From Candidatus Kapaibacterium sp. (GTDB lineage Bacteria > Bacteroidota > Ignavibacteria > Kapaibacteriales > HRBIN21): DNA of 64,000 nucleotides. Where the stretch lies: positions 62,001 to 126,000 of the forward strand of contig CALKEU010000004.1 of the NCBI GenBank assembly GCA_938084565.1, in the 5' to 3' direction. The position numbers were made by a program, and so were the translations under genes. Positions 36,409 to 48,606 of the stretch are shown piece after piece (within the stretch, counting starts at the first letter, position 1; each line of letters opens with the position of its first letter). The notes below the pieces were generated by a model. That model worked only from the letters and a program-made list of their open reading frames with translations, did not search any database and had not been told where the DNA came from.

Positions 36409-37554
36409 ATGCGCTCACTCCAAGAGCTTGTGGCCCGTATCGACCACCTCCAGATGCTGACCATTCTACTGCGCTTCCACAAGCAGATCGAGACAGCCTA
36501 CATAGCGGCTGACCGCATACCACCGGGGGCACTTCCCAGACGCCCGCGGCGGATCCTTGTGCTCGGCATGGGAGGATCGGCCATAACGGGGGATATCCTC
36601 CGCACGTACGCCGCCTTTACCCCTGGGGCAGACCACGTCGACATTCGCGTCCATCGCGGCTACCATCTACCCCCAGCACTCGTCGATCGCCAGACGCTGG
36701 TCATTGCCAGTAGCTACTCTGGCAATACGGAAGAGACGCTCACAACCTTCGAGCTTGCACGGCAGCGAACCCCTCACGTTGCCTGCCTGACCAGTGGGGG
36801 GCGCCTGGCCGAACGTGCCCGTGAGCTCGGCCTCCCCCTCATCCCCATCCCCGCTGGCTTCCCACCCCGAGGAGCGCTCGGCTTTTCCTTCTTCGCCCTC
36901 CTCTTGGTCCTCCTACGCCTGGATACCTTCCGAAAAGCAGCCCGACAGCAGACCGAACGGGCCATTGAAGCTACGTACCAGCGCTTGAAAGAGCTCAGCG
37001 ACCTCTACGGCATGCCGGATGAGCAGGACAATCCCACAGCACGTCTGGCCGTGCAGCTGCAAGCTCGCCTGCCTATTATCTATGCCTCCGAACGGCTGGA
37101 AGCCGTCGGCCTGCGTTGGCGCCAGCAGATTCAGGAAAATGCCAAACACGTGGCTTTTGGCGGCGTCGTGCCCGAGATGAATCACAACGAGCTCAACAGC
37201 TACTTCTTCCCCGCCGGCTTCCCACCGTATACAGCATGGCTCATCTGGCTCCACGATCCCGAGGATCACCCTCGCGTCCGATTCCGCATCGAGCACGCCT
37301 ATCGCCTCCTTGTCCCCCACGTGCCCCTGGAGTCCAACACTTTCCTGACGACCGCAGAGCCCTACTTTCTGACACGCCTGTTCTCGCTGATATACTTCGG
37401 GGACTGGGTCAGCTACTGGCTAGCGCTCCTCCACCGTATGGAGCCTATGGAAACCCAGATCATTGAGGACCTCAAGCGAGCCCTGAACGCTTATCCCTAC
37501 ACCCCGCATTCCCCTGCTTTCTCTTCCCCCCGCAGGGCGGGCGATGGGATTTGA
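36409..37554 (+). CDS. Bifunctional phosphoglucose/phosphomannose isomerase (SIS domain)
   Basis: A 381-residue sugar isomerase with two SIS domains that interconverts glucose-6-P or mannose-6-P with fructose-6-P, the PGI/PMI family known from Crenarchaeota and some bacteria. It has LVLGMGGSAITGDILRTY, IASSYSGNTEETL, LTSGGRLAERA, PAGFPPRGALG and the catalytic PEMNHNELNSY. The ATG at 36409 lies 20 bases after the acyl-CoA dehydrogenase gene. The C-terminal codons run into the tRNA-His gene on the opposite strand, and the TGA stop at 37552-37554 falls within that tRNA's T arm. Confidence 0.93.
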   Translation: MRSLQELVARIDHLQMLTILLRFHKQIETAYIAADRIPPGALPRRPRRILVLGMGGSAITGDILRTYAAFTPGADHVDIRVHRGYHLPPALVDRQTLVIASSYSGNTEETLTTFELARQRTPHVACLTSGGRLAERARELGLPLIPIPAGFPPRGALGFSFFALLLVLLRLDTFRKAARQQTERAIEATYQRLKELSDLYGMPDEQDNPTARLAVQLQARLPIIYASERLEAVGLRWRQQIQENAKHVAFGGVVPEMNHNELNSYFFPAGFPPYTAWLIWLHDPEDHPRVRFRIEHAYRLLVPHVPLESNTFLTTAEPYFLTRLFSLIYFGDWVSYWLALLHRMEPMETQIIEDLKRALNAYPYTPHSPAFSSPRRAGDGI

Positions 37555-37611
37555 ACCCACGACCCCCAGGGCCACAACCTGGTGCTCTCACCGGGCTGAG
37601 CTACGCCCGCC
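37536..37611 (-). tRNA. tRNA-His (GTG)
   Basis: A 76-base cloverleaf on the minus strand. The acceptor stem GCGGGCG/CGCCCGC pairs fully, with the extra G at -1 (37611) opposite C73 (37536), the identity mark of tRNA-His. The D arm contains TAGCTCAG, the anticodon loop TTGTGGC gives GTG, and the T arm reads GTGGG-TTCAAAT-CCCAT. The 3' CCA is not encoded. A TAATTTTG box lies 12 bases upstream. Confidence 0.96.
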
Positions 37612-43969: not shown

Positions 43970-45484
43970 ATGCGTCCAATTCTGACACCCGAGCAGATGC
44001 GCCGTGTCGATGCCGCTGCCGTCGAGCGGGGGATCCCCTCGCTCGTGCTGATGGAGAATGCTGCACGCTCGGCAGCCGAGATCCTCGAGCGATGGCTCGA
44101 GCCTCAGCGCCCACCCGTTGCCCTGATCGTTTGCGGCAGCGGAAATAACGGGGGCGACGGATTTGCCCTTGCGCGCCACCTCGTCTGTCGGGGCTGGTCC
44201 GTCAGGGTGTGGTGGACAGGACAGCGCCAGCACATGTCCGCCGAAACGCAGACGAACCTGACTGCCTTGGAAAGCTTAGGCCTCCAGCCCCTCCATATTC
44301 CGGCTGGGCATCTCCCACCACCTCCGCCCTCGGTTGATGTAGTGATCGACGCATTGCTCGGCATTGGAGCACGTCCCCCTTTGCGGGAAGACATTCGCAC
44401 TCTTGTCCGTGTCCTCCGCTCCCTTCCGGCCCGACGCGTTGCCCTCGATGTCCCAACCGGCCTCAATGCCGAAACTGGAGAGGCCGATCCAGAAGCCTTT
44501 GCTGCCGAGCTGACTATCACGATGTGGGCTCTCAAGACCGGCCTCCTTCTCAACGATGGGTGGCGTTTGTGCGGACGCATCGAGGTTGCCTCGCTCGGTG
44601 TCCCTGAGGCATGGGCAGCCGAATTTGCTCACATTGCGGCCCTGGAGTGGGCCGACCTACAGCAGCGCTTCCCCCCTCGATGGCGAATCAGCACGAAGTT
44701 CGACTACGGACGGGTTGGCATCATTGCCGGCTCAGCCATGATGGCTGGGGCAGCAGCCTTGGCCGCAAATGCGGCCATTCGAAGCGGTGCAGGGCTTGTT
44801 TACCTCTATACGGCCGGGCGTATCCACAGCGCCGTGCTGCCCGAAGTCATTGCACGCCAGCTGCCCTCCACGCCCGAAGGCTGGCTGGATGGTGCAGCAC
44901 TGCCGCTGCTGCAAGAACTACTCGAGCGGGTCGATGCGCTCGTCATCGGGCCTGGGCTCGGCGTCCCAGCACTCCCCGTGATAGAGCAGCTCTTGCCCTC
45001 TATCCCCTCCACGCTCCCTGTGGTGCTTGACGCTGACGCTCTGCGCCTCATCAGTCCCGAACGTCGGGTGCCTGCCACGTGGGTGCTCACGCCACACGTG
45101 GGCGAATTTGCCCGCATGACGGGTGAGGAACGCTCCCACGTGAGCCGCCAGGCCGCATGGCTAGCGCAGCGGTGGGCCCGCCACTGGGGAGGGGTCCTCC
45201 TGCTCAAGCACGTGCCGACTATCATCACCGATGGCCAGCGGGCTTACTGGAATCTCGGTGGGAATCCGGGCATGGCTACCGCTGGTGCCGGCGATGTACT
45301 CAGCGGTATCCTTGGTGCTCTGCTCGCTCGCGGGATTCCCCCGTTGGAAGCCGCCGCGATGGCAGCTTTCCTCCACAGCGCAGCCGGGGATTGGTGCCTC
45401 CGCTCCGCCTCGGCCGAAAGCGTGACGGCATCAGCTCTGCTCTCAGCCCTCCCCTCGGTATTCCCACAGACAGTAGCCCCATGA
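43970..45484 (+). CDS. nnr: Bifunctional NAD(P)H-hydrate epimerase/dehydratase
   Basis: A 504-residue metabolite-repair enzyme that epimerises and dehydrates damaged NAD(P)H hydrates. The N-terminal YjeF_N half shows IPSLVLMENAARSAAEI, VCGSGNNGGDGFALARHL and VALDVPTGLNAETG. The C-terminal ADP/ATP-dependent dehydratase half shows GRVGIIAGSAMMAGAAALAA, LTPHVGEFARMTG and GNPGMATAGAGDVLSGILGALLARG. The start at 43970 is fixed by the promoter box and the RPILTPEQMRRVD opening. It overlaps vanZ by four bases (ATGA). Confidence 0.95.
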   Translation: MRPILTPEQMRRVDAAAVERGIPSLVLMENAARSAAEILERWLEPQRPPVALIVCGSGNNGGDGFALARHLVCRGWSVRVWWTGQRQHMSAETQTNLTALESLGLQPLHIPAGHLPPPPPSVDVVIDALLGIGARPPLREDIRTLVRVLRSLPARRVALDVPTGLNAETGEADPEAFAAELTITMWALKTGLLLNDGWRLCGRIEVASLGVPEAWAAEFAHIAALEWADLQQRFPPRWRISTKFDYGRVGIIAGSAMMAGAAALAANAAIRSGAGLVYLYTAGRIHSAVLPEVIARQLPSTPEGWLDGAALPLLQELLERVDALVIGPGLGVPALPVIEQLLPSIPSTLPVVLDADALRLISPERRVPATWVLTPHVGEFARMTGEERSHVSRQAAWLAQRWARHWGGVLLLKHVPTIITDGQRAYWNLGGNPGMATAGAGDVLSGILGALLARGIPPLEAAAMAAFLHSAAGDWCLRSASAESVTASALLSALPSVFPQTVAP

Positions 45485-45864
45485 AACGCCTCCTGGCCTC
45501 GCTTCCTGCGGCTATCTACGCCGGCACGATCGGCTACCTTTCTCATCTGCCCTCCCTTGCTTCCCTGGCTCACCTCCCGTGGAGCGACAGGCTCGGCCAC
45601 GCTCTGCTCTACACCGGCTTCGGCATCACCCTTGCGCTAGCCCTGACAGCTCACTTACCCAATCGACCATTCCGAACGGTTGCTCTCTGGACCTTCCTGC
45701 TCGGAGCCCTGTACGCCGCCAGTGATGAGCTCCACCAATTGTTCGTCCCCTACCGCGTAGCCGACCTAGCTGACTGGATAGCCGATGTGCTCGGTGTGCT
45801 CCTGAGCGTATTAGTCAGCCGTGCGCTCTTCCCACGATGGCAGCGGTGGTTTCAGATGGTCTAG
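45481..45864 (+). CDS. VanZ-like membrane protein
   Basis: A 127-residue membrane protein with four hydrophobic segments and the VanZ-family features: an N-terminal TIGYLSHLP, DRLGHALLYTGFG, and SDELHQLFVPYRVADLADWIADVLGVLLS, where the DE.HQ and D..D positions are conserved. VanZ was named from teicoplanin resistance, but most members have no established function. It overlaps nnr (ATGA) and tgt (28 bases). Confidence 0.85.
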   Translation: MKRLLASLPAAIYAGTIGYLSHLPSLASLAHLPWSDRLGHALLYTGFGITLALALTAHLPNRPFRTVALWTFLLGALYAASDELHQLFVPYRVADLADWIADVLGVLLSVLVSRALFPRWQRWFQMV

Positions 45865-47021
45865 GCTTCACCCTCCTGCAGAGGGATCCCGAAACGCACG
45901 CCCGCCTGGGGCTCCTGCGGACCGCCCATGGCACCATTGAGACCCCTGCTTTTATGCCTGTGGGGACGCAGGGCACGATTAAGGCCCTGGACCACCGCCG
46001 AGCCCGTGAACTCGGCGTCCAAGTCCTGCTCTGCAACGCCTATCACCTCTACCTGCGTCCCGGCATAAGGGTCATTGAGCACTTCGGAGGACTCCACCGC
46101 TTCATCGGATGGGAGAAACCCATCCTGACCGACAGTGGAGGCTACCAAATCTTCTCCCTCCAGCAGCTCCGCCGTGTCTATGACGATGGCGTCGAGTTCC
46201 GTTCCCACATTGATGGCTCCCTGCATGTCTTCACCCCCGAAGGCCTCATCGAGATCCAGCGTACGCTCGGCTCAGACATCATGATGGTGCTCGATGAATG
46301 CCCTCCCTATCCCGCCGAGCGCGCAGTGCTGGAGAGTGCTGTCCAGCGCACCTTGCACTGGGCTATCCGCTCCCTGAAGGCACTGCGCCAGACGGAGCCC
46401 CGCTACGGGTATGGACAACTCCTCTTCGGTATTGGACAGGGGGGCATCGATGTCGAACTCCGCCGGCGCTGCCTGCAGGAACTCTGCCAATGGGATTTCG
46501 ATGGCTTCGCCATCGGCGGCCTCTCGGTCGGGGAACCAACCGAGGCCATGTACGAGATGGTGGCTCTCTCAACATCTCTGCTGCCGGCAGACCGCCAACG
46601 CTACCTCATGGGTGTTGGTACCCCGGAGAACATCCTGACGGCCATCGAGCTCGGGGTGGATCTCTTCGACTGCGTCCTGCCAACACGCAATGCCCGCAAT
46701 GGGCAGCTCTTCACCACGCGCGGGGTCATCAACATCCGCAATGCCCGCTGGCGCTTCTCCGACGAAGTGCTCGATCCCGGACTCGACCACCCAGTGAGCC
46801 AGACTGTGACCCTGGGATACCTTCGCCATTTGTTCATGGCCAGGGAAATAACGGCCCTCCTGCTTGCCACAGAACAGAACCTGGCTTTCTACCACTGGCT
46901 GTTGCAGACAGCGCGTCAGAAAATACGGGAAGGAAGCTTTCGTCACTGGAAACGCTCTCTGCTGGAAACTTTCCAGCACACGAAGGTTGAAGCAACATCG
47001 GAGATCCCCCCATGCCCATGA
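45837..47021 (+). CDS. tgt: Queuine/preQ1 tRNA-ribosyltransferase (Tgt) lacking the zinc site
   Basis: A 394-residue tRNA-guanine transglycosylase, which swaps G34 of tRNA Asp, Asn, His and Tyr for preQ1. Catalytic elements are intact: ILTDSGGYQIFSL (Asp99, general base), MVLDECPPY (Asp153, base recognition), GFAIGGLSVGEP and LFDCVLPTRNARNG (Asp278, nucleophile). The zinc site is gone: where bacterial enzymes read DPECDCYTC, the aligned ungapped stretch is DPGLDHPVS (residues 313-321), and the histidine of EHN is Gln (EQN, 346-348). So all three Cys and the His ligand are replaced while flanking YLRHLF is kept. It lies directly before yajC, a classic tgt-yajC arrangement. Confidence 0.93.
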   Translation: MAAVVSDGLGFTLLQRDPETHARLGLLRTAHGTIETPAFMPVGTQGTIKALDHRRARELGVQVLLCNAYHLYLRPGIRVIEHFGGLHRFIGWEKPILTDSGGYQIFSLQQLRRVYDDGVEFRSHIDGSLHVFTPEGLIEIQRTLGSDIMMVLDECPPYPAERAVLESAVQRTLHWAIRSLKALRQTEPRYGYGQLLFGIGQGGIDVELRRRCLQELCQWDFDGFAIGGLSVGEPTEAMYEMVALSTSLLPADRQRYLMGVGTPENILTAIELGVDLFDCVLPTRNARNGQLFTTRGVINIRNARWRFSDEVLDPGLDHPVSQTVTLGYLRHLFMAREITALLLATEQNLAFYHWLLQTARQKIREGSFRHWKRSLLETFQHTKVEATSEIPPCP

Positions 47022-47320
47022 CATACGCTGCTGCCGCCCCACAGGGCGGAGATCCTACTGCCGGCCTCCTCAGCACGCTGATCTTCTTCGGCGCCATCAT
47101 GCTGATCTTCTACGTCATGATTATCCGCCCGCAGGTGAAGCGGCAGAAAGAGCACCAGAAGATGCTCAGCGAACTCAAAAAAGGCGATCGCATCATCACA
47201 ACCGCAGGTATCCACGGCACGATCACCGAGATTGAAGACAGCGTCGTTGTGGTGCAAATTGCCGATAACACACGGATTCGGTTGGAAAAGTCTGCCATCG
47301 CAACGGTGCTGAAGAAGTAA
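47012..47320 (+). CDS. yajC: Sec translocon accessory subunit YajC
   Basis: A 102-residue single-span inner-membrane protein that associates with SecDF. The hydrophobic helix [31 protein letters not shown], ending in the RPQ.KR motif, and the cytoplasmic [17 protein letters not shown] are diagnostic. It overlaps the tgt end by ten bases; a second ATG at 47018 is possible. The secDF genes are not in the window. Confidence 0.95.
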
Positions 47321-47325
47321 GAGCT

Positions 47326-48606
47326 ATGCAGCCGGAAGCCAGCTTCAATACTATCGAGGAAGCACTCCAGGATCTGGCCTCAGGGCGAATGGTCATCGTC
47401 GTCGATGACGAAGACCGGGAAAACGAGGGGGACCTGGTCTGCGCTGCACAGTTTTGCACGCCCGATGTGATCAATTTCATGGCCGCGAAGGCTCGCGGAC
47501 TGATTTGCGTAGCAATCACAGAGCAGCGCGCTCGCGAGCTTCAGCTCGATATCATGGTCCGCACAAACACAGCACTCCATGGCACGCGCTTTACCGTCTC
47601 GGTCGACTACATCCACGGTACAACAACTGGTATTTCGGCCTTTGACCGCGCAGCCACTGTCCGCGCCTTGGCCGATCCGGAGGCACGCCCGGAGGATTTT
47701 GCCCGTCCTGGCCATGTCTTCCCCCTCATTGCGGTGGAGGAAGGTGTGCTGCGGCGCGCCGGTCATACGGAGGCAGCCGTCGACCTCATGCGCCTGGCAC
47801 AGCTCAAACCTGCCGCCGTCCTCTGCGAAATCCTTACCGAAGACGGCTCTATGGCCAGACTGCCACAGCTACAGGAATTTGCTCGCCAGCACGGTCTCAA
47901 GCTCATCAGCGTTCGCGATCTGATTGCCTATCGCTTGCGCACCGATACGCTTGTCCGGCCTGTCGCTGAGGCAACTTTGCCAACTATTGTGGGAACCTTC
48001 CGCATCATCGTCTACCAAAACCTCGTGGATCGCCAAGAGCATGTTGCTCTCATCAAGGGCAGCTGGAGCAGCGACGATCCCGTGCTCGTCCGCGTCCACT
48101 CCCAGTGTCTGACAGGGGATCTCTTCGGCTCGCTGCGCTGCGACTGCGGCCCACAATTGCATGCTGCGCTACGCATCATCGAACGCGAGGGAACAGGCGT
48201 CCTGCTCTACATGCAGCAAGAAGGCCGCGGCATAGGACTGGCAAACAAAATCCGCGCCTACGCTCTGCAGGAACAGGGCTTCGATACGGTAGAGGCCAAC
48301 CATCAATTAGGCTTCAAAGCCGACTTGCGCGACTACGGGATCGGCGCTCAAATTCTCCGGCACCTGGGCATTCGCAAAATGCGCCTGCTGACGAATAACC
48401 CGCGTAAGATTGTCGGCCTGGAGGCCTATGGGCTCTCTATCGTCGAGCGCGTCCCCATTGAAATCGAGCCCAATGACTGGAACTGGAGCTACCTCCTGGC
48501 CAAACAGCACAAGCTCGGGCACTGGCTCGCTATTGGACATCCCCCTCAGAGGCAGAGCTGTCATGTCGGACTACCGACGCAGCAGACAGCAGACGGCCAT
48601 GGCTGA
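47326..48606 (+). CDS. ribBA: Bifunctional 3,4-dihydroxy-2-butanone 4-phosphate synthase/GTP cyclohydrolase II
   Basis: A 426-residue riboflavin-pathway enzyme. Residues 1-~205 are RibB, making dihydroxybutanone phosphate from ribulose-5-[24 protein letters not shown] and [11 protein letters not shown]. The rest is RibA, opening [27 protein letters not shown] holds the zinc cysteines, followed by [19 protein letters not shown] and [13 protein letters not shown]. Both active sites look complete. Five bases after yajC and overlapping greA by eight. Confidence 0.96.

Follow-up and report, generated by a model that had tools for sequence, protein, structure and literature searches.

Bacterial tRNA-guanine(34) transglycosylases (Tgt) such as those of Zymomonas mobilis and Escherichia coli bind structural zinc through three cysteines and a histidine, and in the solved structures examined the zinc-containing subtype of the enzyme is marked by a CxCxxC motif followed by a downstream histidine. 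The zinc domain has been named as one of two hallmarks of Tgt (PMC6165067), and zinc is stated to be required by the enzyme (PMC9508795), a dependence that is based on classical E. coli ligand mutants cited in the latter paper. Some other zinc proteins have counterparts that lack the ligands, termed C- paralogues, which take part in Zur-regulated zinc sparing; these include forms of ribosomal protein L31 and QueD2 (PMC9508795). No zinc-free Tgt was found in a literature search, which missed most subscription papers, or in a search of PDB sequences, where the readable loops (Z. mobilis, T. maritima and 10fa/10fb) carry the cysteine motif. Curated protein databases may already list the zinc site of Tgt as optional.

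The window analysed here, a stretch of 64,000 nucleotides from a Candidatus Kapaibacterium sp. genome, encodes a Tgt that departs from this description (Table 1). The protein matches TIGR00430 (Q_tRNA_tgt) at 436.7 bits, the curated equivalog cut-off being 306.75, and PF01702 at 464.4 bits against a cut-off of 26.3, and shares with the Z. mobilis and E. coli enzymes 45-46% identity, the same fold, the catalytic aspartates and a preQ1-type pocket. An earlier, sequence-only reading held that the catalytic residues Asp99, Asp153 and Asp278 are intact while every zinc ligand has been replaced, and both observations stand. The catalytic and preQ1-pocket residues D99, D153, C155, Q201, G228, V231 and D278 are all present, C155 and V231 corresponding to Cys158 and Val233 of Z. 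mobilis. By contrast, the CxCxxC motif and its downstream histidine are absent: alignment with Z. mobilis Tgt, ungapped over the former zinc loop as it is with relatives, places L316, H318, S321 and Q347 where the zinc ligands C, C, C and H would stand.

Table 1. Features of the tgt locus and of a putative tRNA substrate, numbered from the first nucleotide of the window
Feature	Position	Strand	Basis
tRNA-His (GTG anticodon), G34 substrate type of Tgt	37535..37610	-	ARAGORN
VanZ-family gene, upstream, overlaps tgt start	45481..45864	+	NF037970, 54.6 bits
tgt, tRNA-guanine(34) transglycosylase without canonical zinc ligands, 394 aa	45837..47021	+	TIGR00430, PF01702; sole genome copy
Asp99, general acid/base (Asp102 of Z. 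mobilis)	46131..46133	+	Invariant in 219/219
Asp153, base recognition (Asp156 of Z. mobilis)	46293..46295	+	Invariant in 219/219
Asp278, nucleophile (Asp280 of Z. mobilis)	46668..46670	+	Invariant in 219/219
Former zinc loop, residues 313-321, DPGLDHPVS; L316, H318 and S321 at the three Cys positions	46773..46799	+	Ungapped alignments
Gln347 codon (CAG), fourth zinc-ligand (His) position	46875..46877	+	Alignment; DNA read
yajC, overlaps tgt 3' end	47012..47320	+	TIGR00739, 104.4 bits
ribBA, downstream; GTP cyclohydrolase II with Cys zinc motif retained	47326..48606	+	Motif read, profile match

The adjacency of tgt and yajC, from which the sequence-only reading had deduced an operon, is present, and is kept in relatives both with and without the zinc motif; the upstream VanZ-family gene is likewise kept in many relatives. 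A family search of the whole genome (1.87 Mb, 100% complete) recovered a single TGT-family gene, so that the second, canonical copy named by the sequence-only reading as evidence that would count against it was not found there, nor was a zinc-binding tgt of the kind expected of Zur-type sparing. The protein resembles the C- paralogues in being a zinc protein that would work minus its ligands, but whereas those are second copies switched on at low zinc, it is the only copy and is fixed class-wide.

An absence of ligands in one contig might simply be an artefact of sequencing or assembly between positions 46770 and 46880. This has a negligible probability, and was ruled out because all three cysteines are also missing from five other species of the genus, each assembled separately; the same loss is found in every examined member of the order Kapabacteria. 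A single loss specific to the genus was also rejected as a candidate, the missing cysteines extending across the order and into other classes of Bacteroidota.

The extent of the loss, which the sequence-only reading had proposed to establish by alignment with related genomes, was assessed among 219 aligned Tgt proteins from Bacteroidota, Calditrichota, KSB1 and allies. CxCxxC is missing from 155 of them, among which are the only or principal Tgts of entire classes, namely Kapabacteria, Chlorobia (in which one cysteine remains), Rhodothermia, Balneolia and Bacteroidia/Flavobacteriia; named taxa include the mesophilic gut genera represented by Bacteroides finegoldii, Parabacteroides distasonis and Prevotella. 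The motif and histidine are held by Ignavibacteria, Calditrichota, KSB1 and Kryptonia-like loci (64/219). Ignavibacterial Tgts (for instance L060) are phylum-level kin of the window protein, being of the same length, 50-57% identical to it and in the same tgt-yajC context, yet differ from it in retaining DxxCxCxxC and the histidine. Judged from these sequences, the loss of the cysteines is not special to the window genome and follows lineage. This loss is old, as it is fixed in a whole order and common to most classes of Bacteroidota. The 64 motif holders include a divergent second Tgt-like gene, L223, from a genome of the same class (G231), which lies beside a normal Tgt, is 31-33% identical, has an intact CDCHTC and histidine, and falls just below the TIGR00430 cut-off (306.0 against 306.75 bits). 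Tgt was undetected in two Bacteroidota genomes that are nearly complete and belong to the same genus (G196 and G241, family f42).

The loss of the four ligands had been read as concerted, a view that does not survive the comparison. Cysteines are missing order-wide, while EHN is kept in four of the five sister species, glutamine occurring only in the window genome and one other species; a single event removing all four ligands was accordingly rejected. More broadly, the histidine is present in all 64 Tgts with CxCxxC, and the 155 without the motif are divided between histidine (80) and glutamine (75). The change from histidine to glutamine is independent of the loss of the cysteines, and, given the histidine retained in four sister species and in 80 of 155 motif-free proteins, Gln347 arose later, by drift at a site released once the cysteines had gone. 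No ligand is left in 63 of the 155, only the histidine in 59, and the third cysteine with the histidine in 18, the rest having one other remnant; intermediates with two of the three cysteines were not found among the 219. Parsimony on a Tgt gene tree built without the loop columns (140 proteins) gave five changes of zinc state, as did an outgroup-rooted Tgt tree; inner branches are weak, and a single zinc-containing group was not rejected by the AU test (p 0.60).

Only one loss, that in Hyphomicrobiales, is clearly separate from the loss or losses in Bacteroidota. Tgts of Methylobacterium, Sinorhizobium and Shinella (L249, L250, L252, L254) have, like the window protein, no zinc site, three of the four ligands being gone, whereas all four are kept in the alphaproteobacteria Paracoccus, Sphingomonas and Magnetococcus. 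The replacements differ from those in the window protein: the loop is S-x-C-x-x-T/A, such that the second cysteine is kept, the first has become serine and the third threonine or alanine, and asparagine or serine takes the place of the histidine. In Sinorhizobium meliloti, tgt is genetically required for preQ1 use (PMC3568095); the genetics were carried out in strain 1021, and the loop was read in strain Ak57, where tgt (L258) lies directly behind queA, like SMc01207-SMc01206 of strain 1021 (PMC3568095). Taking the two strains together, a living cell depends on a Tgt that lacks the canonical zinc site in order to use preQ1. For the window protein this is evidence from analogy rather than direct proof; the S. 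meliloti enzyme keeps one cysteine and belongs to another lineage.

Loss of ligands that E. coli mutagenesis marks as important, in work cited in PMC9508795, might mean that the gene is in decay or has acquired another role, its product no longer exchanging G34. Several observations make this very improbable. The window tgt is under strong purifying selection: within the genus, whole-gene dN is about 0.12-0.21 against a dS above 1, the ratios being approximate as dS is near saturation, and the loop region is about as constrained as the whole gene. The catalytic and preQ1-pocket residues are invariant, the equivalog score is above its cut-off and the gene is single-copy. The genome also has genes of the queuosine pathway, searches having recovered QueA, adjacent QueF and QueD, and QueG; QueD scores slightly below the NCBIfam cut-off (82.0 against 89.25 bits), and FolE is present, also slightly below curated cut-offs. 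QueH was not found in the genome, as expected given the presence of QueG. The earlier preference for adaptation over decay is thus upheld, and sequence evidence points to a protein that probably still exchanges G34 for preQ1. Two members of the QueA family, about 345 aa and about 400 aa long, the longer with an extra insertion, occur in nearly all Kapabacteria genomes searched; in the window genome both (L231 and L232, at G000:C2:94577-95608 (+) and G000:C2:145418-146620 (-)) exceed the QueA cut-off.

The positions vacated by the cysteines show a preference for particular residues. At the first (316), most motif-free Tgts have Leu, Phe, Ile, Val or Trp, the residue being hydrophobic in 127 of 155 and, within most motif-free clades, in every member or almost every one: it is Leu, Ile, Val or Trp in Kapabacteria, Leu in Rhodothermia (14/14), and Phe in Chlorobia (7/7), Balneolia (9/9) and the motif-free members of family f15 with their close kin (5/5). 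Some Bacteroidia have Gly or Ser here, and across the alignment a hydrophobic residue at this position is a strong tendency rather than a rule. At the third (321), Ser is found in 87 of the 155. An AlphaFold2 model of the window protein is confident (pLDDT 89.6, pTM 0.89), with the former zinc loop at pLDDT 95-98 whether all homologues or only motif-free ones are in the alignment, although AlphaFold2 models no metals and would also be confident for zinc Tgts. The model has the TIM-barrel fold of Tgt (Foldseek match 1efz, E 1.5e-45), and superposes on Z. mobilis Tgt at 1.4-1.8 A over about 370 residues. These features suggest that the loop is stabilised without metal, through packing of the hydrophobic residue.

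Zinc or another metal might instead still be bound in or close to the old site by other residues, such as Asp313, His318 or the invariant His331. H318 does occupy the position of the second cysteine, D313 and H331 are conserved, and some clades, such as Chlorobia and Balneolia, retain one cysteine and the histidine. However, even among species of the genus residue 318 varies (H, Y, S, H, H, F), the conservation of D313 and H331 is matched in zinc Tgts that have the normal ligands, and a hydrophobic residue at the first cysteine position is unlike a metal site, making this arrangement unlikely. We infer instead, with a probability of roughly 0.8, that the window protein is an active member of a lineage-wide group of zinc-free Tgts in which hydrophobic packing has replaced the zinc site. 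It would be the ordinary working Tgt of its genome, swapping G34 for preQ1 in tRNAs with GUN anticodons as the entry step of queuosine synthesis. The structural zinc site would have been taken apart and the unchanged fold maintained by packing, the first cysteine position usually taking a bulky hydrophobic residue (Leu316 here) and the third usually serine, with the freed histidine position drifting between His and Gln; a further, independent loss of the site would have taken place in Hyphomicrobiales. On this reading the protein would be a zinc-free form, apparently new, of an enzyme already known, and the window genome is not alone in having it.

As to what drove the loss, the sequence-only reading had suggested scarcity of zinc or heat. 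Zinc limitation can favour the loss of cysteines, and the only L31 of the genome is of the cysteine-free form. Nevertheless, the loss covers most of Bacteroidota, the mesophilic gut genera included, the Cys/His zinc motifs of UvrA, RibA, FolE and QueD are intact in the same genome, and the zinc-dependent paralogue that goes with Zur-type sparing is missing; adaptation to either stress is consequently an improbable cause. The gene for this L31 lies at L240:1501-1695 (C11:28106-28300). A more general proposition, to which we give slightly less than even odds, is that the structural zinc of Tgt is dispensable, with separate losses in Hyphomicrobiales and Bacteroidota, in the latter perhaps several times, and that in Bacteroidota the loss takes a stereotyped course, a bulky hydrophobic residue replacing the first cysteine and assuming the stabilising role of the metal.

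If whole classes make queuosine with a zinc-free Tgt, the statement that the enzyme requires zinc needs correcting, and the predicted failure of queuosine synthesis at the level of Tgt under zinc limitation would not hold for Bacteroidota or rhizobia. Both zinc states are found within family f15, where L150 has the zinc ligands (DPECSCYAC) and L131 lacks them (DEGFDSYTN); this possible recent loss would offer a natural experiment in the loss of a structural metal site.
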